Source: Thermosediminibacteraceae bacterium
GTDB taxonomy: Bacteria > Bacillota > Thermosediminibacteria > Thermosediminibacterales > Thermosediminibacteraceae
Reading direction: 5' to 3'
Assembly (NCBI GenBank): GCA_021890755.1
Contig: JAKKUQ010000001.1
Span: 124,001 to 188,000 of the forward strand
Length of the DNA stretch: 64,000 nt
Shown in pieces: positions 38,979 through 45,000 of this stretch (positions are counted from its first letter, which is position 1; the number at the start of each line of letters is the position of its first letter). Under the pieces are notes generated by a model. That model did no database searches, was not told the origin of the DNA, and worked only from the letters and a program-made list of their open reading frames with translations. The position numbers and the translations under genes are program-made.

Positions 38979-40679
38979 CTATTTTCTACATATTTTACAC
39001 ACCCGGCATATATCCTGCGTGCACCTTCGAGTAGTTTTGCCTGTTAACGCCCTTTTGTATTCTTCAATAAAATACTCTTTGTCAAGCCCTATGTCTATAT
39101 GATCCCATGGAAGTCTCGCATCGAGAGCAAATTCTCTATGAGCGTAGTACTCGATGTTTTTCCCTTCCACTTCAAACCGCTTAAAACGCGATAAATCTCC
39201 CCCAGCCTTGTGAACTTTATAAAGGATCATCGCTATATTGCGATCTCCCCGAGCAAGCGCAGCCTGAACCTGAGAAACCCGGGGACTTTCATAAAGAAGT
39301 CTTATGCCTTTAGGCTTTAGATTACTTTGAAGCTTCTTTATTTTATCTTCCAAAGACCCTAAACTTTCCATTCCAAGCCACTGAAAGGGGGTAAAGGGTT
39401 TGGGAACAAAAGGATTTACACTTACAGTGAGAAGACCGCTTTTATTTCCACGGGCTACCATTCCTTCCTTGACCCTTTTCAAAAAATCAATCATTTCTTT
39501 AATGTCATCGTCCGTTTCTGTAGGTAAACCTATAATATAATAGAGCTTTACATTTTTTATCCCATAACTTTCCGCCATTTTAATGGCATCCAAGACGTGT
39601 TCTTCGGTTATACCCTTGTTGATGACATTGCGGAGCCTTTGCGAACCCGCCTCAGGGGCTATAGTAAGGGTCTTGTGGCCACTCAGGGAAAGCCCTCTAA
39701 GGAGCGGTTCCCTCAAAGAATCTGCCCGAAGGGATGAAACTGAAAATTTAATGCCTCTTTTGGCTAGTTCCTCTGACAATTCATCGATTTTCGGATAATC
39801 CGATACGGCAGCCCCAACCAATCCCACTTTTTCCCCATGCTTTGCCGCAAACTCAGCCCGCGCAAGTATATTTTCCATCTTTCTTACCCGTGGCACGCGG
39901 TAACAGTATCCAGCCATACAGAACCTGCAATTTCGGCCACACCCCCTTGAAACCTCAATAAGAAACATATCTTTAAATTCGGTATTCGGGGTGATCACGG
40001 CCGTTTCAGTGTTAAAAGCATTAATATCTTTTACCCACCGCCTTTTAACTTTCTCGGGTGCAGGGGATTTTACATTAAATTTTTCGACTTCTCCTTTTTC
40101 GTTATACGTTATTTCATAAAACCTTGGCACGTAGACTCCATCAATTTGAGCCAATTTTTCAAGGATGGCATCTTTTCTTTCTCCCTTACTTTTTCGAAAC
40201 GTATCTATTATTTCGTGGATTACTTCCTCACCTTCACCAATAACGAAAAAATCTACAAATGGTGCCAAGGGTTCAGGATTAAACGTAACGGCAGGCCCTC
40301 CCGCCATTACTAAAATATCCTTTCTCTCCTCGGCAAAAATAGGAATATCTGATTCCTCTAGAATTCTTAAAACATTGACGTAATCTAATTCAAAGGATAC
40401 TGAAAACCCTATTATGTCGTAACTCGCTATTGGGTGGAGAACTTCGATAGTATGAACCGGAAAACCTTTAAACAAAAATGCCCTGTGGCACAGTGAATCC
40501 GGTCTTGAATTGATTTCGCGGTATATAGCTTGAAACCCCAGGTTGGACATTCCTAACTCGTAAGTATTTGGGAAGACCAGGGCAACGTTTACTGGCATTG
40601 ACCCAAAGCTTTTTTGTGGAATAAGGCTGGTCTCTTTCTTCTTTAGCTCTTCTATCTTCAGCCGCATTTTCCAGTTCAT
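38979..40679 (-). CDS. B12-binding radical SAM protein (COG1032-like)
   Basis: Radical SAM enzyme of about 566 residues of unknown substrate. An N-terminal cobalamin-binding-like region (about 25-170, with FPNTYELGMSNLGFQ and MAGGPAVTFNPEPLAPFVDFF) is followed by the 4Fe-4S motif CGRNCRFCMAGYCYR near 250, the radical SAM barrel (EAGSQRLRNVINKGITEEHV near 345, YIIGLPTETDDDI near 380), and a C-terminal cysteine motif CRVCKICR at the end. It differs from the TIGR03960/TIGR03936 pair by sequence. ATG at 40679 is 8 nt after GAGGTGG. First gene of the pgeF-phoBRU operon; a TATAAT is present at 40704-40709 upstream. Confidence 0.85.
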   Translation of the reverse strand: MNWKMRLKIEELKKKETSLIPQKSFGSMPVNVALVFPNTYELGMSNLGFQAIYREINSRPDSLCHRAFLFKGFPVHTIEVLHPIASYDIIGFSVSFELDYVNVLRILEESDIPIFAEERKDILVMAGGPAVTFNPEPLAPFVDFFVIGEGEEVIHEIIDTFRKSKGERKDAILEKLAQIDGVYVPRFYEITYNEKGEVEKFNVKSPAPEKVKRRWVKDINAFNTETAVITPNTEFKDMFLIEVSRGCGRNCRFCMAGYCYRVPRVRKMENILARAEFAAKHGEKVGLVGAAVSDYPKIDELSEELAKRGIKFSVSSLRADSLREPLLRGLSLSGHKTLTIAPEAGSQRLRNVINKGITEEHVLDAIKMAESYGIKNVKLYYIIGLPTETDDDIKEMIDFLKRVKEGMVARGNKSGLLTVSVNPFVPKPFTPFQWLGMESLGSLEDKIKKLQSNLKPKGIRLLYESPRVSQVQAALARGDRNIAMILYKVHKAGGDLSRFKRFEVEGKNIEYYAHREFALDARLPWDHIDIGLDKEYFIEEYKRALTGKTTRRCTQDICRVCKICRK

Positions 40680-40720
40680 CTTGTTTGCCACCTCTTTATC
40701 CTAATTATAATATGTTTTTA

Positions 40721-40748
40721 AAAAAAATAAAAAGGCTTATAAAGCCTT
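40721..40748 (-). terminator. Intrinsic terminator after ylmC
   Basis: Arms AAGGCTT (40732-40738) and AAGCCTT (40742-40748), 3-nt loop, followed on the minus strand by TTTATTTTTTTT. It lies about 22 nt after the ylmC stop and separates it from the radical SAM operon. Confidence 0.8.
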
Positions 40749-40769
40749 ATCCAAGTGGTGGAAGTATTT

Positions 40770-41027
40770 TTATCCTTTATTAGGTTCGGCAAATTCTGAA
40801 AGCTCTATTAGTATTACATCGGTGCCGATTTTCTTTATTTTTTCCCAGGGGATTACGTAGTCTCCACCTTTGCCGAACATGCTAAAAATTTTGGCCGGTG
40901 CAGGAACAATAACGGCACGAATGCGACCTTCTTCCACATCTATATCTAGATCGCTAATAAATCCAAGTCTTTTCCCATCCGTTATATTGATTATCTCCCT
41001 TTGCCTTAAATCGGAGGCCTTTATCAC
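40770..41027 (-). CDS. ylmC: PRC-barrel sporulation-associated protein YlmC/YmxH
   Basis: Small single-PRC-barrel protein of 85 residues: LRQREIINITDGKRLGFISDLDID near 6-29 and the end VIPWEKIKKIGTDVILI match the YlmC/YmxH family of spore formers. Start chosen at GTG 41027, 5 nt after GGGGTGA; upstream in-frame codons would add a non-family extension. It is flanked by terminators on both sides, so it is transcribed alone; TATAAT lies at 41046-41051 on the minus strand. The gene keeps its conserved place after sigG. Confidence 0.87.
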   Translation of the reverse strand: MIKASDLRQREIINITDGKRLGFISDLDIDVEEGRIRAVIVPAPAKIFSMFGKGGDYVIPWEKIKKIGTDVILIELSEFAEPNKG

Positions 41028-41080
41028 ATCTCTCACCCCTTTCACATTATAATTTATATTCACCTAAACAAAAAAATGTA

Positions 41081-41107
41081 AAAAAATAAGGGCCTTGTAA
41101 GGCCCTT
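41081..41107 (-). terminator. Intrinsic terminator of the spoIIGA-sigE-sigG unit
   Basis: Perfect 9-bp arms AAGGGCCTT (41088-41096) and AAGGCCCTT (41099-41107) around a very small loop, followed on the minus strand by ATTTTTT. Starts directly after the stop codon of the 63-aa protein. Confidence 0.85.
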
Positions 41108-41299
41108 TTAGTGTTCTTTCATTAGCATTCTCCTGATTTCTGCTTCTTTCATAACTATTTTTAATGGTTCCTCCTGATTTACATAAATGAGGTTTTTTGT
41201 ATTATAAGCCACTATGGCTCTTGATCCTAATACAAAATAGAAGCCGAAAAGAAAGGCTACGGTTAATATCACTATCAGTAGTTTCTTTACTAGTTCCAT
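41108..41299 (-). CDS. Small membrane protein downstream of sigG
   Basis: A 63-residue protein with one hydrophobic helix (about 5-27, VKKLLIVILTVAFLFGFYFV) and an outside tail ending VMKEAEIRRMLMKEH. I do not recognise a family. The ATG at 41299 is 5 nt after GGGGTGA, a strong site, and the gene lies 15 nt after sigG and right before the terminator, so it is probably made along with SigG in the forespore or with the spoIIG unit. It could be a signal-anchored peptide that tunes sporulation, but that is only inference. Confidence 0.65.
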   Translation of the reverse strand: MELVKKLLIVILTVAFLFGFYFVLGSRAIVAYNTKNLIYVNQEEPLKIVMKEAEIRRMLMKEH

Positions 41300-41314
41300 A
41301 ATTTTCACCCCAAA

Positions 41315-42088
41315 CTAAATGTATTTTCTCAGGTGTTTTAAAGCAGCCTTCTCCAACCTTGAAACCTGCGCCTGCGATATTCCGATCTCTTGAGCAACCT
41401 CCATTTGAGTCTTACCTTCAAAAAATCTTAGTGTCAGGATCATTTTTTCCCTTTCGTTTAACTTTTGCATGGCTTCCTTTATGGAAATGCTCCTTACCCA
41501 ATTTTCATCGGTATTTTTGTCATCACTGATCTGGTCCATGACAAAAATTGGATCTCCAGCATCGTGATAAATGGGCTCAAAAAGCGATATAGGCTCCTGA
41601 ATTGCATCCAAAGCCATCACTATTTCTTCGGCTGGCATGTTCATTTCTTTGGCTATTTCTTCTATAGAAGGTTCTCTCGAATGTTTGTTTACTAAAGAAT
41701 CCCTAACCTGCAAGGCTTTATAAGCAATATCTCTTAAAGACCTGCTAACCCTTATGGGATTGTTGTCCCTCAGATACCGCCTGATTTCTCCTATGATCAT
41801 CGGCACTGCATACGTGGAGAATTTAACGTTCTGGTTTAGATCGAAATTGTCTATTGCTTTCATAAGTCCTATACATCCAACTTGAAAAAGGTCATCTACG
41901 TACTCACCACGGTTATTGAATCTCTGTATGACACTCAAGACCAGTCTCAAATTTCCATGGATAAGTTTTTCCCTTGCTTCTTTATCTCCCTGTTTGACTC
42001 TAATAAAGAGTTCCCTCATTTTACTGTTTGACAACACAGGGAGCTTTGAAGTGTTAACCCCACATATCTCTACTTTGTTCAAATTCAT
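41315..42088 (-). CDS. sigG: RNA polymerase sporulation sigma factor SigG (forespore, late)
   Basis: Sigma-70 family factor of 257 residues that drives late forespore genes. N-terminal segment NKVEICGVNTSKLPVLSN is typical of SigG. Region 2 includes GNLRLVLSVIQRF and DDLFQVGCIGLMKAIDNFD near 50-85 and the -10 recognition part STYAVPMIIGEIRRYLRD; region 3 near 125-165; region 4 with MILTLRFFEGKTQMEVAQEIGISQAQVSRLE near 220-250. SigF, the other possibility, lacks this N-terminus and sits with spoIIAB. The ribosome site AGGGGGAA is part of a hairpin (42094-42142). Confidence 0.96.
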   Translation of the reverse strand: MNLNKVEICGVNTSKLPVLSNSKMRELFIRVKQGDKEAREKLIHGNLRLVLSVIQRFNNRGEYVDDLFQVGCIGLMKAIDNFDLNQNVKFSTYAVPMIIGEIRRYLRDNNPIRVSRSLRDIAYKALQVRDSLVNKHSREPSIEEIAKEMNMPAEEIVMALDAIQEPISLFEPIYHDAGDPIFVMDQISDDKNTDENWVRSISIKEAMQKLNEREKMILTLRFFEGKTQMEVAQEIGISQAQVSRLEKAALKHLRKYI

Positions 42089-42093
42089 AAAAA

Positions 42094-42142
42094 TTCCCCC
42101 TGTCTTTCCAGTGCCTCATTTAAATTTTTGCCACAGGGGGAA
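42094..42142 (-). promoter_or_regulatory. sigG leader hairpin that pairs the ribosome binding site
   Basis: On the minus strand TTCCCCCTGT (plus 42133-42142) pairs perfectly with ACAGGGGGAA (plus 42094-42103), 10 bp, loop 29 nt. The downstream arm is the sigG Shine-Dalgarno, 5 nt before the ATG, and is followed by TTTTT, so it might also act as an attenuator. It lies in the transcript read through from sigE. Confidence 0.7.
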
Positions 42143-42153
42143 GTTTTTATTCA
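42123..42153 (-). promoter_or_regulatory. Sigma-G/sigma-F-like promoter of sigG
   Basis: TGAATA (plus 42148-42153) is followed after 15 nt by GGCAAAAATT (42123-42132), close to the forespore -10 pattern GGNNANANT. The spacer is the upstream arm of the leader hairpin, so a transcript from here would begin after that arm. Autoregulation of sigG is known in B. subtilis; the box match is by eye. Confidence 0.5.
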
Positions 42154-42164
42154 CTTTTATAAAA

Positions 42165-42884
42165 TTACATCATTCTTACTATTTCTTTTCTTAGCCTTTT
42201 TATTATCCTTTTTTCAAGCCTCGAGATATATGACTGCGAAATTCCCAGAAGTTCAGCAACCTCTTTCTGAGTCTTTTCTTTTCCATCGTTTAAACCGAAT
42301 CTTAGTTCCATTATACACCTTTCCCTTTTCGACAAGCGCCGTATTGCTGCGTCCAAAAGTTCTTTTTCAACTTCTTCTTCTATGCATTTATAAATCATAT
42401 CACTGTCGGTACCTAAAATATCGGAAAGCAGGAGTTCGTTCCCATCCCAGTCTATATTCAAAGGCTCATCGAACGACACTTCGCTGCGATTTTTGTTGTT
42501 TCTCCTAAGATACATCAGTATCTCGTTCTCGATGCACCTTGAAGCATAAGTTGCAAGTTTAATCTTTTTACGCGGGTCAAAAGTATTAATAGCTTTTATG
42601 AGGCCAATAGTCCCAATAGATATAAGATCCTCAATGCCCGCCCCGGTATTTTCAAACTTGCGTGCTATGTAAACGACCAAACGTAAATTCCTTTCTATCA
42701 AAACATTTTTAACTGCGTTATCTCCCATCTCCAATTTGCTCAATAAAATAGCCTCTTCCTCGCTGGAAAGAGGAGGCGGTAGAGTTTCGCTGTTACCTAT
42801 ATAATATATAACTCTTTTTTCCGGCATTCCCAGTTTTTTTAGTATTTTCCAAATTAAAACCTTGACATTAAATTTCTCCCACAT
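42165..42884 (-). CDS. sigE: RNA polymerase sporulation sigma factor SigE (mother cell, early), pro-form
   Basis: Sigma-70 factor of 239 residues made as an inactive membrane-bound precursor. The first ~30 residues ([24 protein letters not shown]) are the amphipathic pro-sequence cleaved by SpoIIGA. Region 2: [17 protein letters not shown] and [19 protein letters not shown] near 65-100, [16 protein letters not shown] near 115; region 4 [37 protein letters not shown] near 190-225. Activates spoIVA, spoIIP and other mother-cell genes. It lies 26 nt after spoIIGA. Confidence 0.97.
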
Positions 42885-42910
42885 ACTAATCTCCCCCCAT
42901 TAAAAATTTT

Positions 42911-43807
42911 TTATCCAAGTAAAAGCTCCGGGTTCAATAAAGCTCTATAATTTCCTTGTGGCGAAAGCTTCCTGTGGTAAATACCTAACACTACGTTTTT
43001 TATTTCGTAAACTTTGCTGCTTTGCTCAATCAATACCCTGTCAGGTTTAAAACCTATCATTAAACCCTTGTTTTTCCCTATAGACGTAAACGGTATTATC
43101 CTCAGCCTAGTCGCCCATTCGGAATTTAAAACTGCTGCCGTCATGTTTTCAAGTTCGCCAGTTCCCTTTCCTATGTACTTTTTCATTTCTCTGGGAAGCA
43201 ATTCTTCTAAAGCAGAATATTCTACTATTATAACGGGATCATTGGAAATCGGATCCCGCAAGTCATTTCCTGTATCAATCAGAGCCTTTATTTTAAAGTG
43301 CTGCTTTCCGAAAAATACGGTAATCGGCACCACAAACGAATCCCTGAACAGTATTCTATAAATCATCGGCCACATGTATTTAAAGAACACAAACAAAAAC
43401 GCACAGGAAACCAGTAATATCCACCATGGCACAGAAATATTATTTACTAAGAGGCTTTCTGTAAATCCGCCATTAATGGTTATTAGGTAAAATAAGGCAA
43501 AGGCGCCACCTCCAACCATGAAGGATACAAAATAAAAGAAGCCAAGAGCTTTTATAAATTCAGAAAAGGTTAATGGAAAAAATGCTGTAAGTACCATCAA
43601 AATAGACATGAGTAGCTTTCCCGGAACCGTTTTTAAAAACGCACCGCTCGGGAAAAATATCTCTAAAAGAAACAAGTTGCCCAAAAGGGCTGCTATGGTA
43701 AATTTTAGCTTTCCTGTGTTCAATTTCAGTATTAATTTTACTAGCCAGAGTATTGTGAGATTCATGAGAAAGTTTATAAAAAAGACTATGTCCAGGTAAA
43801 CTACCAT
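42911..43807 (-). CDS. spoIIGA: Sigma-E processing peptidase SpoIIGA
   Basis: Membrane aspartic protease that cuts pro-SigE on a signal from the forespore (SpoIIR). 298 residues: five N-terminal helices (about 1-150, beginning MVVYLDIVFFINFLMNL) and a cytoplasmic pepsin-like half with ALIDTGNDLRDPIS near 182, holding the catalytic aspartate. The ATG at 43807 is 6 nt after GGAGG. A TATAAT (43870-43875) and a TGCCGAA (Spo0A-box-like, 43845-43851) lie upstream on the minus strand, but no -35 box at normal spacing. First gene of spoIIGA-sigE-sigG. Confidence 0.94.
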   Translation of the reverse strand: MVVYLDIVFFINFLMNLTILWLVKLILKLNTGKLKFTIAALLGNLFLLEIFFPSGAFLKTVPGKLLMSILMVLTAFFPLTFSEFIKALGFFYFVSFMVGGGAFALFYLITINGGFTESLLVNNISVPWWILLVSCAFLFVFFKYMWPMIYRILFRDSFVVPITVFFGKQHFKIKALIDTGNDLRDPISNDPVIIVEYSALEELLPREMKKYIGKGTGELENMTAAVLNSEWATRLRIIPFTSIGKNKGLMIGFKPDRVLIEQSSKVYEIKNVVLGIYHRKLSPQGNYRALLNPELLLG

Positions 43808-43888
43808 ATGCTGCCTCCGGACTTCCATGTCTAAAAAATTTATATTCGGCAGGTTCATTTTTTATGATAATTATAACACCGGCAATTA

Positions 43889-43919
43889 CAAAAAAATGTC
43901 ACTTCATGATAAGTGACAT
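43889..43919 (-). terminator. Second intrinsic terminator after ftsZ
   Basis: Arms ATGTCACTT (43896-43904) and AAGTGACAT (43911-43919), 9 bp, 6-nt loop, then TTTTTTT on the minus strand. Tandem with the terminator at 43919-43946. Confidence 0.85.
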
Positions 43920-43947
43920 AAAAAAAGAGCGCGATTTTGCGCTCTTA
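43919..43947 (-). terminator. First intrinsic terminator after ftsZ
   Basis: Arms AAGAGCGC (43925-43932) and GCGCTCTT (43939-43946), 8 bp, 6-nt loop, followed on the minus strand by TTTTTT. It includes part of the ftsZ stop codon. Confidence 0.88.
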
Positions 43948-45000
43948 TTTTTTCCTGCTCCTTCTAAGAAATGCCGGTATGTCAAAATCTTCATCGTCAA
44001 AGGGTTCTAGGTCAAAGTCTTCCTCTTCTTCCTTTACTGGTTTTTCTTTTTGCTCGAAACCTGTGGCAATCACAGTTATTCTTATCTCATCCTGTAGCTT
44101 TTCGTCGATAACTGCGCCAAAGATTATATTGGCGTCAGGATCCGCAGCCGCAGCTATGTACTCTGCCGCTTCATTTACTTCCAAGAGGCCAAGGTTAGAG
44201 CTTCCTGTAATGTTCAGGAGTACACCCTTTGCTCCCTCAATAGATGTCTCTAAAAGTGGACTTGAGACCGCCTGTTTTGCAGCTTCTATAGCCCTGTTTT
44301 CTCCGCTTCCCCGGCCAATCCCCATATGAGCCAGGCCAGTATCCATCATAATAGTCCTCACGTCAGCAAAATCCAGGTTAATCAAACCGGGAACAGCTAT
44401 CAAGTCCGAAATACCCTGAACACCTTGTCTTAGAATATCATCGGCAATACGAAATGCTTCTAAAATAGAGGTTTTCTTTTCCGCGATAGTAAGCAGCTTG
44501 TCGTTAGGAATCGTTATTAGAGTATCTACACAGTTTTTCAGATTTGCTATACCCATTTCAGCATGAGCCATGCGCCTTTTACCTTCAAAGCTAAATGGTT
44601 TTGTCACAACTCCAACGGTGAGTATACCAAGATTTTTGGATATCTCCGCTACCACTGGCGCTGCCCCTGTTCCCGTTCCGCCCCCCATACCGGCGGTTAT
44701 GAATATCATATCTGCTCCTTTTAAAGCTTCCTCAATTTCCGTTCGGCTTTCCTCTGCTGCCTTCTTTCCAATTTCAGGATTCGCACCAGCTCCAAGGCCT
44801 TTGGTGAGTTTTTCTCCTATTTGGATTTTTTTATCGGCCTTCGACAAAAAAAGGGCTTGAGCATCGGTATTGACTGCTATGAATTCTACTCCTTTTAATC
44901 CTGCTTCTATCATGCGGTTTATGGCATTATTACCGCCTCCACCTATACCTATTACTTTTATGTTGGCGAATTGTTCCATGGCAACGTCAATATCCAGCAC
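43945..45000 (-). CDS. ftsZ: Cell-division GTPase FtsZ
   Basis: Tubulin-like GTPase that forms the Z ring. 351 residues. [21 protein letters not shown] at the N-terminus (given in part), tubulin signature [10 protein letters not shown] near 104, T7 loop NLDFADV near 203, and the C-terminal peptide DIPAFLRR that binds FtsA, SepF and other partners. The GTG at 45000 is 7 nt after GGAAGGGGG and gives a typical beginning; a GTG at 45018 overlaps the ribosome site. Last gene of the dcw transcription unit, closed by two terminators. Confidence 0.98.

Follow-up and report, generated by a model that had tools for sequence, protein, structure and literature searches.

A promoter spacer predicted to mask the sigG ribosome-binding site in read-through RNA, and its alternation with intrinsic terminators among Bacillota

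Introduction

SigG does harm when it is active in the wrong cell, yet its gene adjoins an operon that is transcribed before and outside the forespore. Misexpression of sigG without its restraints and without CsfB results in sick vegetative cells (Mearls 2018, PMC5942855). In C. difficile the gene is transcribed both from the promoter before spoIIGA and from a forespore promoter immediately 5′ of sigG itself (PMC7438776). The spoIIGA-sigE-sigG locus of the Thermosediminibacteraceae bacterium studied here raises the question of what would keep sigG silent in RNA arriving from sigE. The analysis was conducted on a stretch of 64,000 nucleotides (the window) and extended to the sigG upstream regions of other Bacillota.

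The sigE-sigG interval and its promoter

The three genes each pass the curated cut-off of their own NCBIfam equivalog (Table 1). sigG lies directly 3′ of spoIIGA-sigE in the same orientation, with no intervening terminator reported by a terminator scan, and is separated from sigE by a gap of 76 nt on the minus strand, whose 5′ to 3′ sequence is ...GTGAATAAAAACTTCCCCCTGTGGCAAAAATTTAAATGAGGCACTGGAAAGACAGGGGGAATTTTTATG. No Rfam 15 family matched above its gathering score within positions 40000-44000, and a known RNA family or riboswitch was rejected as an identity for the leader. Immediately 3′ of sigG there is an ORF of 66 amino acids (41108-41308, minus strand) with an N-terminal hydrophobic stretch and no NCBIfam match, which precedes the ylmC/ymxH gene (40770-41063). 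The interval between ftsZ and spoIIGA holds two neighbouring terminator-like hairpins (43896-43946, minus strand), of which one may be bidirectional.

Table 1. Features of the spoIIGA-sigE-sigG locus, in positions of the window
Feature	Position	Strand	Basis or remark
spoIIGA	42911..43858	-	opens the operon; TIGR02854 above cut-off
sigE (spoIIGB)	42165..42884	-	TIGR02835/NF006158 above cut-off; sigG would receive read-through from the sigE transcript
-35 element TGAATA, SigF/SigG-type	42148..42153	-	sequence; promoter aligns in relatives
Spacer AAAACTTCCCCCTGT, 15 nt, holding the 5′ arm	42133..42147	-	sequence; 15-nt spacing kept in relatives
5′ arm (anti-SD) TTCCCCCTGT	42133..42142	-	folds and covariation; extended by 42150-42144 past a bulged C
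-10 element GGCAAAAATT	42123..42132	-	sequence; consensus and position conserved
3′ arm ACAGGGGGAA, which holds the sigG Shine-Dalgarno (SD)	42094..42103	-	folds
sigG SD AGGGGGAA	42101-42094	-	within the 3′ arm
Outer 3′ arm TTTTTAT	42087..42093	-	folds; partner ATAAAAA; covers the first two bases of the start codon
sigG coding sequence	41315..42088	-	ATG at 42088; TIGR02850, 511 bits, E=5e-154

The gap contains a SigF/SigG-type promoter from which transcription of sigG is predicted, by the position of its elements, to start at about 42119-42115. Its 15-bp spacing is the one usual for sigG promoters in Clostridia (Mearls 2018, PMC5942855). A strict form of the promoter pattern has five matches in the 2.36-Mb genome, against three for a reversed-pattern control. 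One of the five lies before sigG and another before spoIIR, which is a known SigF target.

The last 10 nt of the spacer, its 3′ two thirds, constitute one arm of an inverted repeat whose other arm includes the sigG SD. The arms (TTCCCCCTGT and ACAGGGGGAA) are complementary at 10 of 10 positions across a loop of 29 nt and, following a bulged C (42143), seven further pairs join ATAAAAA (42150-42144) to TTTTTAT (42093-42087), and this extended helix also includes the AT of the ATG start codon. The perfect 10-bp repeat and its loop had been described in an initial annotation of this DNA, which also placed the upstream arm in the promoter spacer and pointed out that RNA started downstream of the -10 element would be without it. 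The repeat is confirmed as written and the placement of the arm is exact. The same annotation supposed that the SD would be closed in RNA read through from sigE and open in RNA started at the promoter, and the folds described below bear this out as far as prediction goes.

Folding of the long and short leaders

When folded in silico, the 105-nt read-through leader reaches -22.9 kcal/mol (z -2.2), with five of 200 shuffles equally good, and pairing between promoter and ribosome-binding site (RBS) is better than in about 98% of dinucleotide shuffles (z -3.1). The helix thus predicted would sequester the sigG RBS in read-through RNA. It cannot form in RNA from the predicted sigG start, since the 5′ arm lies upstream of the -10 element and the short leader is open. 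In partition-function folds the SD has an unpaired probability of 0.007-0.009 in the read-through RNA, compared with 0.40-0.44 in RNA beginning at the predicted start, and the cost of opening it is 13 kcal/mol in the long form and 4 kcal/mol in the short form.

Could the structure act on the promoter's own transcript instead? A 5-bp RBS hairpin in the B. subtilis PsigG transcript, separate from any read-through structure, has a 2-4-fold effect, and such hairpins are common in Bacilli, though less so in Clostridia (Mearls 2018, PMC5942855). Like the structure described here it is a helix formed at the sigG RBS, but it targets the transcript of the promoter itself. In the window the predicted start lies downstream of the 5′ arm, the promoter-derived leader (42124-42060) folds at -5.1 kcal/mol, no better than shuffles (z 0.05), and this same short leader has no RBS helix that reaches -6 kcal/mol. 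A dampening role of this kind is accordingly considered very unlikely.

The 3′ arm is followed by TTTTT in the window, and the initial annotation had therefore also entertained attenuation, in which the inverted repeat and its T's would stop sigE-derived RNA before sigG. That part of the proposal fails. The loop is of 29 nt, the T's are themselves paired, and in relatives the run is reduced to two to four T's or broken (AGTTTT, ATATTTT, GGTTTCTATG, GGTTAATG). The sigG leader does not show the GC stem, short loop and unpaired conserved T run of an intrinsic terminator, the terminator scan does not report the repeat, and those lineages that do have a terminator carry it as a separate element upstream of the promoter. 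Attenuation is thus given only a slim chance, much like that of the dampener.

Conservation and covariation in close relatives

The arrangement found in the window is kept in 19 relatives from two families of one taxonomic order, the window's own, always as promoter, 15-nt spacer, anti-SD within the spacer and SD within the 3′ arm. Among them the 5′ arm changes from CTTCCCCCTGT to CCTCCCCCG, CCTCTCCCT or CTCCTCCTA and the ribosome side from AGGGGGAAG to GGGGGAGG or AGGAGGAGG. As the whole-family MAFFT alignment places the 3′ arm one base out of register in several rows, pairs were tallied for each sequence separately, using predicted duplexes. The arms were found to covary at several stem positions, as the initial annotation had anticipated, with compensatory changes from T-A to C-G in spacer stem columns 12 and 13, and from C-G to T-A in columns 15 and 18. 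In all 18 leaders scored, the SD costs more to open in the long form (5.5-18.3 kcal/mol) than in the short form (0.9-5.0 kcal/mol).

It should be considered whether the pairing is a by-product, with a C-rich spacer serving promoter strength or DNA structure and matching a G-rich SD incidentally. Promoter strength can depend on spacer sequence, and as all SDs are G-rich any C-rich spacer will pair with them somewhat. However, the complementarity reaches beyond the SD core and covaries. The spoIIR gene, which has the same promoter type in the same genomes, was used as a control for pairing as a feature common to SigF promoters. The spoIIR spacer and RBS pair in the genome of the window and in some close relatives (p 0.00-0.02 in five), while nearly all genomes of the sister family show no more pairing than chance. 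Spacer:RBS pairing is therefore not general to SigF promoters here, and that explanation was rejected. Taken with the RBS exchanges and the distribution of masking reported below, which also weigh against it, an incidental origin is judged improbable, if slightly less so than the two readings above.

In the genome of the window, the SigF-type promoter of spoIIR (L285, about 1500-1640; genome G000, contig C97, 7742-7772) shares sequence with the end of the preceding gene, and pairing between the spacer of this promoter, GTGCTTCCT, and the spoIIR RBS has a p of about 0.01-0.02.

Masking and terminators among Bacillota

The survey comprised 237 unique sigG upstream regions from Bacillota genomes, which collapse at 72% identity into 120 clusters. 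A SigF/SigG-type promoter is present near sigG almost everywhere in these regions. Masking was called thermodynamically, from 60-150 shuffles, by comparing the SD opening cost of the read-through RNA with that obtained on dinucleotide shuffling of only the part upstream of the start (p<=0.05). By this test the SD is masked in 30 of the 120 clusters (25%, where 5% would be expected), and in 11 of the 18 with a sigE-sigG gap of <=100 nt. The spacer is the largest contributor to SD pairing in 22 of the 30 masking clusters, its mean share being 0.58 in masked clusters and 0.12 in the others. Between lineages the arm sequences differ while the position of the promoter is conserved, with unrelated pairs of arms in Thermoanaerobacter (TATCCTGCC / GGCAGGA), Defluviitalea (AGTTTCCTC / GGAGGGAAC) and the Bacillus-type leaders (TTTTTCCCACCC / TGGGAGGGAAAAA). 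The hairpins of different lineages may share one origin or have arisen repeatedly.

In many other lineages sigE and the sigG promoter are separated by an intrinsic terminator, as called by a simple hairpin-plus-T rule. Among the 86 clusters whose gap is <=400 nt, two have both devices, 39 a terminator only, 22 masking only and 23 neither (Fisher 3e-6). As competition from a terminator hairpin could affect the fold, folding was repeated from the -35 element onward only. Masking counts are then 4/37 with a terminator versus 17/28 without (Fisher 0.003), and the mean excess SD opening cost is 0.13 and 2.89 kcal/mol respectively (P=2e-5). Simulations of independent evolution on a SigE+SigG tree gave P=0.0005, 0.0045 and 0.0035 with masking defined in three ways. 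Parsimony on this tree, few branches of which are well supported, requires 16-19 changes for masking and 23 for the terminator. An independent-pairs test of terminator against masking was not significant with 8 supported pairs, of which about two were informative, nearly all being in the expected direction, and in independent pairs there was no significant link between gap length and masking.

Exchange of RBSs between clusters without a terminator costs 2.7 kcal/mol (P=0.0013), and 1.0 kcal/mol (P=0.14) where a terminator is present. A spacer thus pairs better with its own RBS than with a swapped one, and masking is concentrated where terminators are absent, neither of which would be expected of an incidental match between C-rich spacer and G-rich SD.

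The recurrence of masking and its negative association with terminators lead us to read the two as alternative insulators of sigG. In the wider form of this reading, sigG in sigE read-through would be silenced across the endospore formers by either of two interchangeable devices, a terminator or an anti-SD in the promoter spacer, which lineages have swapped many times with the spacer rewritten each time to fit the local ribosome site; the odds on this we regard as even. The 23 clusters with neither device under these tests amount to half of the set without a terminator, and may employ Rho, weaker structures or none.

In three leaders from sister families of the same class as the window's organism (L029, L034 and L025, genomes G022, G023 and G025), an intrinsic terminator between sigE and the promoter of sigG replaces the masking hairpin. 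Three further leader clusters (L104, L161 and L207) apparently possess a terminator together with a masking helix, the sigE-sigG gap exceeding 300 nt in all of them.

Proposed role and comparison with known systems

For the locus in the window we consider it likely that the leader is a switch governed by transcript origin, which insulates sigG from the upstream operon. Read-through transcripts of spoIIGA-sigE would arise in the mother cell as well as ahead of the forespore programme. They would carry the spacer of the sigG promoter, which would pair with the SD of sigG and with some of its start codon, and it is therefore proposed that such RNA makes little SigG. RNA made by SigF, and later by SigG, would start inside the loop, downstream of the 5′ arm, and have its ribosome site free. 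We infer that read-through takes place in this organism, that the start lies where predicted and that translation of the two forms differs. The spacer between -35 and -10 would suit an anti-SD because it is the least constrained sequence near the gene and is yet excluded from the promoter's own transcript. In other Bacillota the same insulation would be provided by the intrinsic terminator between sigE and sigG.

These observations suggest that selection acts to insulate sigG from the upstream operon and that the spacer of a promoter is able to double as a regulatory RNA arm. The prediction for any spore former without a sigE-sigG terminator is that an anti-SD should be looked for in the promoter spacer. 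A caution also follows for RNA-seq, as production of SigG need not follow the level of sigG RNA.

The logic of masking in read-through RNA is not new, having already been described for B. subtilis and for phage T4 gene e. As the passage of Mearls 2018 on this RNA has it (PMC5942855, citing Masuda 1988 and Sun 1991), the B. subtilis read-through sigG transcript has a hairpin of 20+ bp that was proposed to block translation and is impossible in PsigG transcripts. The initial annotation had drawn this parallel, which is real and closer than its author knew. Gene and operon order are the same, the sigG RBS is covered in read-through RNA only, the structure is absent from PsigG RNA, and the Bacillus-type leaders surveyed here also place the arm in the promoter spacer. 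Differences are to be found in the arm sequence, which is unrelated, in the helix, which is of 17 bp here by prediction, and in the promoter and start codon (spacers of 14 and 15 nt and starts of GTG and ATG in B. subtilis and the window, respectively). It is the spread of the device across related spore formers, rather than its logic, that looks new, as a literature search covering part of the literature did not find its phylum-wide recurrence or the trade-off with terminators.

Phage T4 offers a second precedent in the leaders of gene e (lysozyme), soc, 49 and I-TevI, in which the RBS is hidden in long early RNA and gene-proximal late promoters, located for gene e in the region encoding the 5′ strand, yield RNA without that strand, with an effect of about 100-fold for gene e (PMC3014915). 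The sigG leader corresponds to gene e in that the distal RNA is predicted to hide the RBS and the proximal promoter overlaps the 5′ strand. Unlike sigG, the T4 leaders serve phage timing and not insulation between cell types, and there is no homology between the two. The long undecoded transcript isoforms (LUTI) of yeast are likewise 5′-extended RNAs that are poorly translated, but they operate by means of upstream ORFs and transcriptional interference, and the resemblance is one of analogy only.
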